From Chloroflexota bacterium (GTDB taxonomy: Bacteria; Chloroflexota; Limnocylindria; QHBO01), in NCBI GenBank assembly GCA_024636135.1, contig JAGXHP010000144.1, forward strand, positions 1 to 37,970: a stretch of 37,970 nt of DNA, in the 5' to 3' direction. Shown here in pieces: positions 30,996 through 37,040 of the stretch; the first letter of the stretch is position 1, and the number at the start of each line of letters is the position of its first letter. The position numbers were made by a program, and so were the translations under genes. Below the pieces are notes generated by a model, which was given only the letters and a program-made list of their open reading frames with translations, made no database searches and had not been told where the DNA came from.

Positions 30996-32110
30996 GGACG
31001 AGGCCCAGCGCCTGGCGCGCCTCGTGACCGAGACGTCGGTGCGCCTTTGACCACTCCAGCAAAGAGGCCGAGCTCGCCGAGCTGACCGAGCGCTCCGCCG
31101 ATCCCGACCTGTGGGATGACCCCGCCGCGGCGCAGTCGACCATGCGTCGCGCCGAGGAGCTGCGGTCGGAGATCGACCTGTGGCAGTCGCTCGGCGAGCG
31201 TGCCAACGGCCTGGCCGAGATCGCAGAGATGGCGGCGGCCGATCCCGACGAGGCGGAGACCCTGCGGCCCGACCTCGAGCGGGATCTCGCCGCGCTCCAG
31301 GCCGACTGGGCGCGACTCGAGCAGCAGCTCCTCCTGGGCGAGCCGTTCGACGAGCGGGGGGCGATTGTCTCGATCCACGCCGGCGCCGGGGGAACCGAGT
31401 CCCAGGACTGGGCCGAGATGCTCCTGCGCATGTACCTGCGCTGGGCGGAGCGTCACCGCTTCAAGACCGAGATCCTGGAGGCGACCGAGGGCGAGGGCGC
31501 GGGGCTCAAGAGCGTCAGCTTCACCGTCGACGGGCGCTGGGTCTACGGTCAGCTGCGCAGTGAGCGAGGCGTCCATCGGCTCGTGCGGATCAGTCCGTTC
31601 GACTCCCAGAAGCGCCGCCACACGACCTTTGCGCTGGTCGAGATCATGCCGGAGGTCCCCGAGGACGCGGCGGTCGAGATCGACGAGAAGGATCTCCGGG
31701 TCGACACCTACCGCGCCAGCGGGGCCGGTGGCCAGCACGTCAACAAGACCGACTCGGCGGTACGCCTGACGCATGAGCCGACCGGGATCGTCGTCGCCGT
31801 GCAGAGCGAGCGGAGCCAGCATCAGAACCGCGAGCGCGCCATGGCCGTCCTCCGCGCCCGACTCATCGAGCGGCAGGAGGAGGAGCGCGAGGCGGAGATG
31901 GCACGCCTGCGCGGCGAGCACGTCGAGGCTGGCTGGGGCAACCAGATTCGGAGCTACGTCCTCCAGCCGTACACGATGGTGAAGGACCTGCGAACCGGGG
32001 TCGAGACCTCGAATCCGACCGCGGTGCTCGACGGTGAGCTTGATGCCTTCATCGACGGCTACCTTCGCTCCCGCGTCGGCCAGGCCGAGGGCTCGACGCC
32101 GGCCGGATGA
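30982..32110 (+). CDS. prfB: Peptide chain release factor 2, expressed by programmed +1 frameshift
   Basis: Frame 1 from TTG 30982: MDTIRDEAQRLARLVTETSVRL then CTT TGA C (31045-31051); +1 frame DHSSKEAELAELTERSADPDLWDD...; GGQ motif GAGGQHVNKTDSAVRLTHEPTG. Confidence 0.9.
31045..31051 (+). promoter_or_regulatory. RF2 programmed frameshift site CTTTGAC
   Basis: In-frame UGA at 31048-31050 after CUU; GGTG Shine-Dalgarno-like tract 3 nt upstream. Confidence 0.88.
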
Positions 32111-33852: not shown

Positions 33853-35211
33853 ATGAACGAGCACGTGCCCCCAGCCCCCGCCCCGCGGCGGGGCGGATCG
33901 ATTCCCTGGATCATCTCCATCGCCCTGGCGGCGGTGGTCGGTGCCCTGCTGTTCGCCGGCGGGTTTCTCGCGGGCGGCGGCTCCGAAGCCGGTGGTTGTG
34001 CGGCCCCCGACGATGCCTTCGCCGCGTTCTGCGAGGCCTACGATCAGCTCCAGAACGACTATGTCGATGAGCTCGACCCCGACGCGCTCGTCGAGGGCGC
34101 GATCCGCGGCATGTTCCAGTACGGCGTCGCCGATCCGTACTCCGGCTACATGCCCCCGGAGCAGTATCGCCAGGCGCTCGGCGACCTTTCCGGCGCCTTC
34201 AGCGGCATCGGGGCCGAGATGGCGATCCGCAACACCCGGGATGCCGCGGACCTTGCCGCGTGTACCGAGCTGAGCGACGTCTGCCGCCTGATCGTCGTCG
34301 CGCCGTTGTCGGACTCGCCGGCCGAGCGGGCCGGGCTCCAGACGGGCGACTTCGTCGTGGCCGTGGATGGGACGTCGGTCAACGGCACGACCATGGAGGA
34401 CCAGATCGGCCAGATCCGCGGGGAATCGGGCACCGACGTCACGCTGACGGTCCTGCGCGATGACGGCGAGCCATTCGACATCACGATCACGCGCGCCGAG
34501 ATCACGATCCAGGAGGTCGAAGCACGGATGATCGACGGGCACATCGGCTACATCGGCCTCAACCAGTTCTCGGCGCCGGCCGCCGACCAGTTCCGTGATG
34601 CGCTCGCCGACCTGATCGACGAGGGCGCCGACCAGGTCGTGTTCGACCTCCGCGACAACCCCGGCGGCTACATCGATGCGGCGCAGCAGATCGCCAGCCA
34701 GTTCGTCGACGACGGGCTGATCTTCACGCAGGAGTCGGCCGGCGACGACGTCCGCGAGTGGCCGGCAACCGGCGACGGCGTGGCAACTGATCGCGAGATT
34801 CCGGTCGTGGTGCTCATCAACGGCGGGTCTGCCTCGGCATCCGAGATCGTCGCGGCGGCGCTCCAGGAGAGCGGACGCGCGACCCTCATCGGCGAGCCAT
34901 CATTCGGAAAGAACACGGTACAGGTCTGGAGCCGGCTCGAGAACGAGGGCGGGGTCCGCATCACGATCAGCCGATGGTTCACGCCGCAGCACAACAGCGT
35001 TGCGCCCGACGGGATCCAGCCCGACGTCGACGCGGCACGCACCGCGGAGACGCCGCCGGAGGAGGATCCGGTCCTCGACGCCGCCATCGCCTTCCTCGGC
35101 GATCAATCCGTGGCCGACGATCCCTTGACGCCGAAGCCGTCCGGTTCGCCATCCGCGGGGCTTCCGGGAGCGGTCGTCGTGGGCGTTGTGGGCGCTCGAC
35201 CCATCTGCTAG
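33853..35211 (+). CDS. ctpA: Carboxyl-terminal processing protease (S41, PDZ)
   Basis: N-terminal TM, PDZ domain, INGGSASASEIVAAALQE and GEPSFGKNTVQ catalytic region. Confidence 0.95.
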   Translation: MNEHVPPAPAPRRGGSIPWIISIALAAVVGALLFAGGFLAGGGSEAGGCAAPDDAFAAFCEAYDQLQNDYVDELDPDALVEGAIRGMFQYGVADPYSGYMPPEQYRQALGDLSGAFSGIGAEMAIRNTRDAADLAACTELSDVCRLIVVAPLSDSPAERAGLQTGDFVVAVDGTSVNGTTMEDQIGQIRGESGTDVTLTVLRDDGEPFDITITRAEITIQEVEARMIDGHIGYIGLNQFSAPAADQFRDALADLIDEGADQVVFDLRDNPGGYIDAAQQIASQFVDDGLIFTQESAGDDVREWPATGDGVATDREIPVVVLINGGSASASEIVAAALQESGRATLIGEPSFGKNTVQVWSRLENEGGVRITISRWFTPQHNSVAPDGIQPDVDAARTAETPPEEDPVLDAAIAFLGDQSVADDPLTPKPSGSPSAGLPGAVVVGVVGARPIC

Positions 35212-35214
35212 CAT
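35186..35214 (+). promoter_or_regulatory. Putative promoter TTGTGG-N17-TAGCAT at the 3' end of ctpA
   Basis: -35 at 35186-35191, -10 at 35209-35214, overlapping the ctpA stop. Confidence 0.5.
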
Positions 35215-35238
35215 CGCCGGCAACGAAAGGAGGTGGTG

Positions 35239-35286
35239 TTGCTGATGGATAGTTCCAAGCACGCCACCACCGAGGCAGTGGCCTAA
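35239..35286 (+). CDS. Candidate mini-ORF (MLMDSSKHATTEAVA or MDSSKHATTEAVA)
   Basis: GAAAGGAGGTG (35225-35235) matches the typical 16S anti-SD complement over 11 nt; TTG at 35239 or ATG at 35245; TAA at 35284. Confidence 0.5.
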   Translation: MLMDSSKHATTEAVA

Positions 35287-35314
35287 CACAGCTTCGCGTG
35301 GTGTAGCGACGGAG

Positions 35315-35338
35315 GAGCCGGCCGAATGCGGCCGGCTC
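35315..35338 (+). terminator. 9-bp GC hairpin, terminator- or attenuator-like
   Basis: GAGCCGGCC-GAATGC-GGCCGGCTC, followed by TCTCC but no clear U-tract. Confidence 0.55.
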
Positions 35339-35384
35339 TCTCCATGTCCGCCCCGATCGAACCCGCACGCTGAGCCCAGGACCG

Positions 35385-35849
35385 ATGCCCGACGAGACGA
35401 TCGCCGTCAACCGACGCGCCCGCCATGACTACACCATCGAGGACACCCTCGAGGCTGGCCTCGTGCTGACCGGGACCGAGATCAAGAGCATCCGCGAGCA
35501 CAAGGTGAACATCGCCGAGGCCTATGCCAGGGTCGACAAGGGCGAGGCCTGGCTGATCGGCGCCCACATCGCGGAGTACTCGCAGGGCAACCGCAACAAC
35601 CACGCTCCGACGCGCACGCGCAAGCTGCTGCTGCATCGCGACCAGATCGCCGAGCTCACCGGGCTGCAGTCGGCAAAGGGACTCACGATCGTCCCGCTGC
35701 GGCTCTACATCAGCCGCGGACGGGCGAAGCTCGAGCTCGGGATCGCCAAGGGCAAGAAGACCCACGACAAGCGCCGATCCATCGCCGAGCGCGACATGCG
35801 CCGCGAGCTCGATCGCGAGTCGAAGCAGGCCGGGCGCATCAAGCTCTAG
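35385..35849 (+). CDS. smpB: SsrA-binding protein
   Basis: AVNRRARHDYTIEDTLEAGLVLTGTEIKSIREHKVNIAEAYA; KGKKTHDKRRSIAERD. Confidence 0.98.
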   Translation: MPDETIAVNRRARHDYTIEDTLEAGLVLTGTEIKSIREHKVNIAEAYARVDKGEAWLIGAHIAEYSQGNRNNHAPTRTRKLLLHRDQIAELTGLQSAKGLTIVPLRLYISRGRAKLELGIAKGKKTHDKRRSIAERDMRRELDRESKQAGRIKL

Positions 35850-35913: not shown

Positions 35914-35927
35914 AGAACAGGTGTTCT
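35914..35927. promoter_or_regulatory. LexA/SOS-box-like palindrome
   Basis: AGAACAGGTGTTCT fits GAACRNRYGTTC; overlaps the putative ssrA -35. Confidence 0.5.
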
Positions 35928-35946
35928 CATCGGCGCGTCGGTCTGC

Positions 35947-35952
35947 TAGAAT
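35947..35952 (+). promoter_or_regulatory. Putative -10 element (TAGAAT) for ssrA
   Basis: 20 nt before the mature tmRNA 5' end; TTCTCA 17 bp upstream. Confidence 0.55.
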
Positions 35953-35972: not shown

Positions 35973-36335
35973 GGGGATGTCAGGATTCGACAGTGCCCAG
36001 GAACCGAGAATCGCAGGTCGAGGTTGCTCGCAGGCCTCGTTAAACAGCGGGCAATTGCTGTAACTGGCAACGATAGTTACGCCTTCGCTGCTTAGGCAGT
36101 GAACATCGACGCCGTCCCCCCTCCCCGGGCGGCGAAGATGTCATTAGGGGAGGTGCGGCGTCGCCGACTCCGGTGAGTGGCGTCAAAGAGCCGAAAGGCA
36201 TCACCGGATAGCAGGCGAAGCACCCCGCCGGTCGGGGGCCCGCATTGCGAAGCGCAAGTTGGCCGGAAATACCTGTAGGAAGTTCTCGGCGACTGTGTTC
36301 TGGACGGGGAGTTCGATTCTCCCCCATCTCCACCA
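35973..36335 (+). ncRNA. ssrA: tmRNA (transfer-messenger RNA)
   Basis: 5' GGGGATG pairs with 3' CATCTCC-ACCA; T-arm GGGGAGTTCGATTCTCCCC; tag ORF 36051-36095 encodes AIAVTGNDSYAFAA*. Confidence 0.96.
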
Positions 36336-36373: not shown

Positions 36374-36467
36374 TGCGTCAAGCGGACCCGAGCGAGTTGA
36401 CCCGCTGTGCTACGGTCCGTCGCGGGTCGGGGGGCCCTTTTGGTCGACATGGAGGGTGTTGGATCGG

Positions 36468-37040
36468 ATGGACTTCTCGAAATTGAGCCAGACCGAAAAA
36501 CTGGCCGTCTACGGATCCGCGGCGGTCATCATCGGCGGTCTGGTGGGATACAGCTACGGACTCACCGTGCTCGCTGTGCTCGCCGCAGTCGCGATGCTCG
36601 TCATCGTCCTGCTGCCGCAGCTGTCGCCGGGCACCACCTTGCCGGGCTCCCGAGGCAGCCTGATGGTCGCCGCCGGTGGCGTGGCCGGCGTGACGATGCT
36701 GCTGGCCCTGCTCGTCGGCATCGGGCTGGTGTTCGTCAACTTCAACGTTCGCGACCTGTTCTTCCTGATCGCCGTGGTGGGCGCCGCCGTGATGGCGTGG
36801 GCTGGCTGGCAAGAGTTCCAGGCCGAGGGCGGCAAGTTCAAGGTCGGAACCTCATCGGCCTCCGAGCGGCCGGCCGCGTCCCCAGCTCCCGCGGCTACCG
36901 CAGCCGAGCCGGTAGCGGCCGAGCCGGTTGCGAGCGAGCCGGTCGCCTCCGAGCCGGTCGCGGCCGAGCCGGTAGCCGCCGAGCCCGCTGCCGCCGAGCC
37001 GGCGGCCGAGCCCACGGACGACGATCGCCCGGTCGGCTAG
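36468..37040 (+). CDS. Membrane protein with C-terminal Glu-Pro-Val-Ala repeat tail
   Basis: Several hydrophobic helices then (A/S)EPVA repeats; alternative ATG at 36456. Confidence 0.7.
   Translation: MDFSKLSQTEKLAVYGSAAVIIGGLVGYSYGLTVLAVLAAVAMLVIVLLPQLSPGTTLPGSRGSLMVAAGGVAGVTMLLALLVGIGLVFVNFNVRDLFFLIAVVGAAVMAWAGWQEFQAEGGKFKVGTSSASERPAASPAPAATAAEPVAAEPVASEPVASEPVAAEPVAAEPAAAEPAAEPTDDDRPVG
36903..37007 (+). repeat. Imperfect 15-bp tandem repeat, 7 units, in coding sequence
   Basis: Units such as gccgagccggtagcg/gccgagccggttgcg/agcgagccggtcgcc. Confidence 0.85.

Follow-up and report, generated by a model that had tools for sequence, protein, structure and literature searches.

The window, the whole 37,970-nucleotide stretch of DNA that we analyzed (GC content 68.4%), is from a soil-type Chloroflexota bacterium and contains a short RNA gene, referred to here as the element, between two protein-coding genes on the same (+) strand. 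Upstream is a ctpA-like gene for an S41 peptidase (33853-35211; PF03572, E = 1e-47), and downstream, as elsewhere in its class, is smpB (35385-35849; PF01668, E = 1.2e-59). A putative promoter, TTGTGG - 17 nt - TAGCAT (35186-35214), lies over the end of ctpA, with the -35 at 35186-35191 and the ctpA stop codon (35209-35211) inside the -10 (35209-35214). The predicted RNA is about 120 nt (35221-35345), with its 5' end placed from the -10 box and its 3' end at a hairpin. At its extreme 5' end is a Shine-Dalgarno (SD) sequence, GAAAGGAGGTG (35225-35235), whose 11 nt complement this genome's own 16S tail (...GGATCACCTCCTTTCT). The SD is followed by a mini-ORF, MDSSKHATTEAVA and a stop codon (35245-35286), that runs from ATG at 35245 to TAA at 35284-35286; an alternative in-frame start, TTG at 35239, would give 15 codons.

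Two predicted pairings use the same part of the mini-ORF. In the first, S1, a 5' arm that overlaps the SD (GGUGGUGU, 35232-35239) pairs with 35261-35268, or else GGUGGUG (GGTGGTG in the DNA, 35232-35238) pairs with CACCACC (35265-35271). The 3' arm of S1 is thus an anti-SD inside the ORF (35261-35271); part of it is also the 5' arm of a hairpin, P1 (35262-35308), and here S1 and P1 are mutually exclusive. P1 is in the minimum free energy fold of the 128-nt RNA, has the stop codon in its loop, and pairs part of the ORF with sequence 3' of the stop codon through CGC/GCG, CACCAC/GUGGUG (35265-35270/35298-35303), CGAGGC/GCUUCG (35271-35276/35291-35296), and GUG/CAC (35278-35280/35287-35289, the GUG being part of GTGGC at 35278-35282). 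Beyond P1 is a GC-rich hairpin with a perfect 9-bp stem (35315-35338) that is likely a terminator or 3'-end element. An earlier note on this DNA had listed the promoter, SD, mini-ORF, repeats, and hairpin, and we found all of them where it had placed them; the 11-nt match that it described between the SD and the usual 16S tail holds for this genome's own 16S tail.

The element is more than a chance arrangement, based on its predicted folding, its single occurrence in the genome, and its conservation between diverging flanks. The computed folding energy of the 128-nt RNA is -69.5 kcal/mol, compared to -45.7 +/- 3.5 kcal/mol for dinucleotide shuffles (z = -6.85). The earlier note had proposed searching the genome for other copies: the draft genome (2.04 Mb) has GAAAGGAGGTGGTG only once and lacks AAAGGAGGTG at the N7 spacing to the start codon found in relatives. 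It had also proposed aligning the region between ctpA and smpB in relatives. In the family alignment the flanks diverge around a conserved SD, anti-SD, and end hairpin; across relatives, the ORF frame and the folds are kept, and P1 covaries in two groups.

Three other features of the window were noted. The prfB gene has the canonical RF2 +1 frameshift site CTT-TGA-C at 31045-31051, after which the main ORF continues in another frame. A tmRNA (35973-36335), missed by ARAGORN, matches Rfam with 139 bits, and its tag, VTGNDSYAFAA and a stop, is read at 36060-36095. The region at 36456-37040 encodes a small membrane-type protein whose tail repeats EPVA/AEPVA and whose weak match to LysE is below the cut-off.

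Distribution of the element in the phylum

The element was found by DNA search in 20 of the 22 genomes of the window's family (f1). The two without it are incomplete, and smpB was also unmatched there. The gene order was ctpA - element - smpB wherever both flanks were present. A homologue was upstream of smpB in all 59 further genomes of four other families of the class in which that region could be read (one further upstream region, ended by its contig end, was left out), and two more loci in the class were found separately. In total, every genome of the class with a readable ctpA-smpB gap, about 80, had a homologue. About 43 more genomes with a homologue belong to other classes of the phylum; these searches used patterns built on the 5' block, with one pattern match (G249) left out of the genome counts, and a reversed control pattern gave zero matches in the same searches. 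In a Ktedonobacteria-like order, the pattern had missed 20 genomes, of which 12 gave a homologue by DNA search. Matching genomes had one copy each, except for one genome with two, each beside its own copy of smpB. Large parts of the phylum gave no match, which may reflect absence or divergence. A search of plasmids gave no match to the element, and a search of phages gave only one weak 24-nt match (E = 0.09).

The architecture was constant: promoter, an SD of 11-13 nt at the predicted 5' end, ORF of 13-28 codons, P1, S1, and end hairpin. The SD was invariant in f1 and nearly so across the phylum, and its complementarity to the 16S tail was 11-13 nt across homologues. The element is longer at loci L121-L130 (families f2/f4), where it includes a 10-bp helix (CCAAAGACCC/GGGTCTTTGG). 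A short second frame with an ATG start also occurs there and ends in EV-A-like codons, and the first frame varies between these genomes.

Promoter and 3' end

The promoter of the element that the earlier note proposed is a weak match to consensus when taken alone. TTGTGG has 3 of the 6 bases of the -35 consensus, and a consensus promoter scan of the window did not report the site. We nevertheless consider the promoter credible because relatives retain its TTG, spacer, and TAnnnT. Within the family, the -35 begins with TTG in 19 of 20 genomes, the spacer is 17 nt (16 genomes) or 18 nt (4 genomes), the -10 is TAGCAT, TAGGAT, or TACGAT, and the distance from the -10 to AAAGG is 10-11 nt. In every large group the -10 is 10-12 nt from AAAGG, and across these groups the TTG is retained and the spacer is mostly 17 or 18 nt; f2 and small groups fit this geometry more poorly. 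The spacing from the -10 to AAAGG places the predicted start of the RNA a few nucleotides 5' of the SD.

The end hairpin, described in the earlier note as strong, does have a perfect stem, and the stem covaries in the class, but in the window it has no clear U-tract (the tail is TCTCC) and a terminator scan did not report it. In other classes, unlike in the window's own, the element is followed by U-tract terminators. The promoter scan found no promoter-like site in the 46 nt between the hairpin and smpB, and within the class expression of smpB may depend on read-through from the element. A promoter-like TTCTCA-N17-TAGAAT (35924-35952) is located just 5' of ssrA, so ssrA need not rely on transcription of smpB.

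Two predicted pairings compete for the anti-SD

Of the pairings that the earlier note had drawn from CACCACC, two hold. The one with GGTGGTG over the SD (S1) was favored over codon-shuffled controls in the window's class, and the one with the downstream GTGGTG is part of P1, a helix that other families also have but with a different sequence.

We tested P1 by permuting arms because its 3' arm is put in the wrong place when f1 and f3 are aligned together. The true arms beat all 5000 permuted arms in both f3 (z = -7.3) and the Ktedonobacteria-like order (z = -7.5), figures that are not probabilities because the permutations ignore the relatedness of the genomes. Double changes were present at 5 of 13 P1 pairs in the Ktedonobacteria-like order, and, with P1 and S1 taken together, at 6 pairs (0/500 shuffles). 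Comparisons of own with crossed arms gave no discrimination in f1, f5, and f2/f4, where the arms are too alike or the search stretch was possibly too long. By eye, P1 is present with different sequence in f2 (CCAAAGACCC/GGGUCUUUGG) and f5 (ACCGC-UCUCG/CGAGA-GCGGU).

S1, in which the SD is paired with the anti-SD inside the ORF, is nearly invariant in the window's class and shows no covariation there; its 8 pairs are invariant or U-G in 19 genomes. It beat the codon-shuffled median in 20/20 genomes of f1, 10/10 of f5, and 38/38 of f3, and was weakly favored in the Ktedonobacteria-like order (79% of genomes; mean rank 0.34). A single compensatory event was found in that order, at L205, where a G-to-A change on the SD side is matched by a C-to-T change in the ORF; the same SD change is uncompensated at L156 and L157. 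After the mini-ORF stop at L156 is a sequence, CATCACCTCCTTTCGT, that is a long complement of that locus's own SD region and almost duplicates the 16S tail.

S1 and P1 have bases in common in the window's class and use different bases in the Ktedonobacteria-like order. In the former, their energies appear to be close, and the minimum free energy fold holds one or the other depending on the 5' bases that are included. Because the two compete for the same bases, ribosome loading would choose the fold there.

The reading frame of the mini-ORF is kept

In all 38 genomes of f3, the distance from the start codon to the CACCACC landmark was 24, 27, 30, or 33 nt, all multiples of 3, and the distance from the landmark to the stop codon was 15 or 18 nt. 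A control distance, from the landmark to the 3' arm of P1, was not in phase (18/11/9 over the three phases). Of 33 genomes in the Ktedonobacteria-like order, 26 have an ORF of 24 codons and the others one of 23-26. In relatives, start codons GTG and ATG interchange freely, as do stop codons TAA, TAG, and TGA. In f2/f4, the frame of the long ORF was not constant between genomes.

Neighboring genes and alternative explanations

The neighbor was smpB at every examined locus of the window's class with that flank. This would fit a cis attenuator, in which the element regulates the next gene (smpB in the class) by partial termination and read-through set by translation of the mini-ORF; the 46-nt distance from the hairpin to the smpB start, with no promoter-like site by scan, and a class hairpin whose missing U-tract permits read-through also fit. 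Outside the class, however, the neighbors were birA-lysS, greA-lysS, a Fur-like gene, DUF4031, or, as at L157 and L218-L220, no adjacent gene on the same strand. The biotin ligase neighbor, often with lysS, had Pfam support at three directly tested loci; the remaining biotin ligase and lysS neighbors were called from sequence motifs, and one tested fragment gave no match. The Fur-like protein scores just under its cut-off. In addition, the element is present once per genome and not in front of several genes, and the 3' arm of P1 does not overlap the end hairpin, so that no anti-terminator is visible. We consider a cis attenuator possible but improbable. The changing neighbors favor a gene of its own over the leader of one target, judging from gene order, and the sensor controlling trans-translation that the earlier note had suggested is not supported, given these neighbors and the promoter-like site of ssrA. 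A dedicated smpB/ssrA switch is not supported, and read-through into smpB could matter.

The C-rich segment of the ORF (CACCACC, CACACCUUCC) is conserved down to third codon positions. Such conservation would fit a trans-acting or decoy RNA: the SD, when exposed, would capture 30S subunits, or the C-rich segment, when untranslated, would pair with the SDs of other mRNAs. The 11-13 nt match to the 16S tail and the existence of the element as a standalone unit in some genomes point the same way, and UCCCC motifs of RNAIII and RsaE are known to pair with target mRNAs in trans (PMC3868564). We think this unlikely, as the C-rich segment already has a partner within the RNA and titration of 30S subunits would need very high abundance.

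Conservation of the frame and the strong SD could also indicate a functional micropeptide, which the earlier note had offered as a standalone conserved gene. It appears to be standalone, but variability by codon position speaks against the peptide being selected: across one set of 19 genomes it was 0.154/0.121/0.097 for the mini-ORF and 0.109/0.069/0.264 for smpB, so that smpB has the usual third-position excess and the mini-ORF has none. Other groups had the same trend, flat or falling at the third base, and the sequence and length of the peptide vary freely between families. Constraint on the RNA at third positions could mask weak selection on the peptide, but the first and second positions show no special protection either. 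A micropeptide gene is therefore very unlikely. We also considered cysteine attenuation, as many of the peptides have CC or C, and rejected it because the window's own genus has no Cys. Because the frame is kept while third positions are as conserved as the others, we infer that translation and the RNA are under selection and the peptide hardly is, which the comparison of genomes supports. Least credible of all is a leader on which ribosomes stall so that rescue by SmpB/tmRNA feeds back on smpB: the element does sit before smpB in its class and has a structured region around the stop codon, but there is no conserved stalling peptide, homologues outside the class adjoin other genes, and ssrA has its separate promoter-like site.

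A model for the element

We favor, at about an even chance, a model in which the element is a normally single-copy small RNA gene, conserved in Chloroflexota, whose fold depends on whether a ribosome has loaded by the time the anti-SD leaves RNA polymerase. Comparison among relatives supports conservation of the promoter geometry, SD, frame, P1, and, in the window's class, S1. The SD would leave RNA polymerase first. If a 30S subunit bound before the anti-SD emerged, the ORF would be translated and the fold would stay open; with no 30S subunit in time, S1 would close over the SD and initiation would be locked out. In the window's class, where S1 and P1 compete, ribosome loading would pick the fold and the RNA would read out the capacity for translation initiation. 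Candidate later steps that could read the fold are RNA stability, pairing in trans, and read-through into the next gene. The translation-responsive leader or small RNA of the earlier note is in keeping with this model, given a frame that is kept, a peptide that hardly is, and two pairings that compete for the same bases.

More tentatively, and as something we would not expect to be the case, the RNA might measure free initiating ribosomes throughout the phylum, with translation of an ORF of unconstrained peptide as the signal, captured in the short interval after the SD has emerged and before the anti-SD does, and with the fold setting a trans-acting output.

If these proposals are correct, then the element is a regulatory RNA selected for being translated and not for its product, a new kind of RNA sensor. 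Much of the phylum would carry a normally single-copy RNA that is missing from the catalogue searched and in which selection acts on translation itself, and the element would be a defined object for testing how bacteria sense ribosome supply. It would also caution against assuming that a conserved small ORF encodes a functional peptide. With the curated scores of Rfam 15, the window gave only the tmRNA and 15 homologous loci gave only a tRNA; the best score in a relaxed scan of the element was 16.9 bits (cut-off, 70). A literature search, with coverage short of most subscription journals, found no description of the element.

Comparison with known systems

Leader attenuators such as those of trp, his, and erm use translation of a short ORF to choose between mutually exclusive hairpins. 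The element has a short leader ORF and, by prediction, mutually exclusive folds. Those attenuators respond to a particular amino acid or drug and regulate a single downstream operon, whereas the element has no conserved codon or peptide and its neighbors change.

The peptides encoded by the dual-function sRNAs RNAIII and SgrS are functional. Dual-function sRNAs with short ORFs include RNAIII/hld, SgrS/sgrT, and VcdRP (PMC8672173, PMC5521070) and have in common with the element a short structured transcript (predicted here), their own promoter, an SD, and a small ORF. In the element, in contrast, the peptide appears to be unconstrained and the frame and RNA are conserved.

In icaR mRNA of Staphylococcus aureus, an anti-SD in the 3'-UTR (UCCCCUG) pairs with the SD (PMC3868564). 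An internal anti-SD is likewise predicted to sequester the SD of the element. The anti-SD of icaR is in the 3'-UTR of a normal gene, whereas that of the element is inside a tiny ORF, so that translation itself would remove the pairing. STAB-SD 5' stabilizers (Agaisse and Lereclus 1996, cited in PMC7509114) also have an SD in the 5' untranslated region, where binding of 30S protects the RNA; that SD takes no part in translation, whereas the SD of the element serves a conserved start codon. SD sequestration, leader ORFs, and dual-function RNAs are all familiar, and the element appears to bring them together in a combination new to us: normally single-copy, with an unconstrained peptide, and across much of a phylum.
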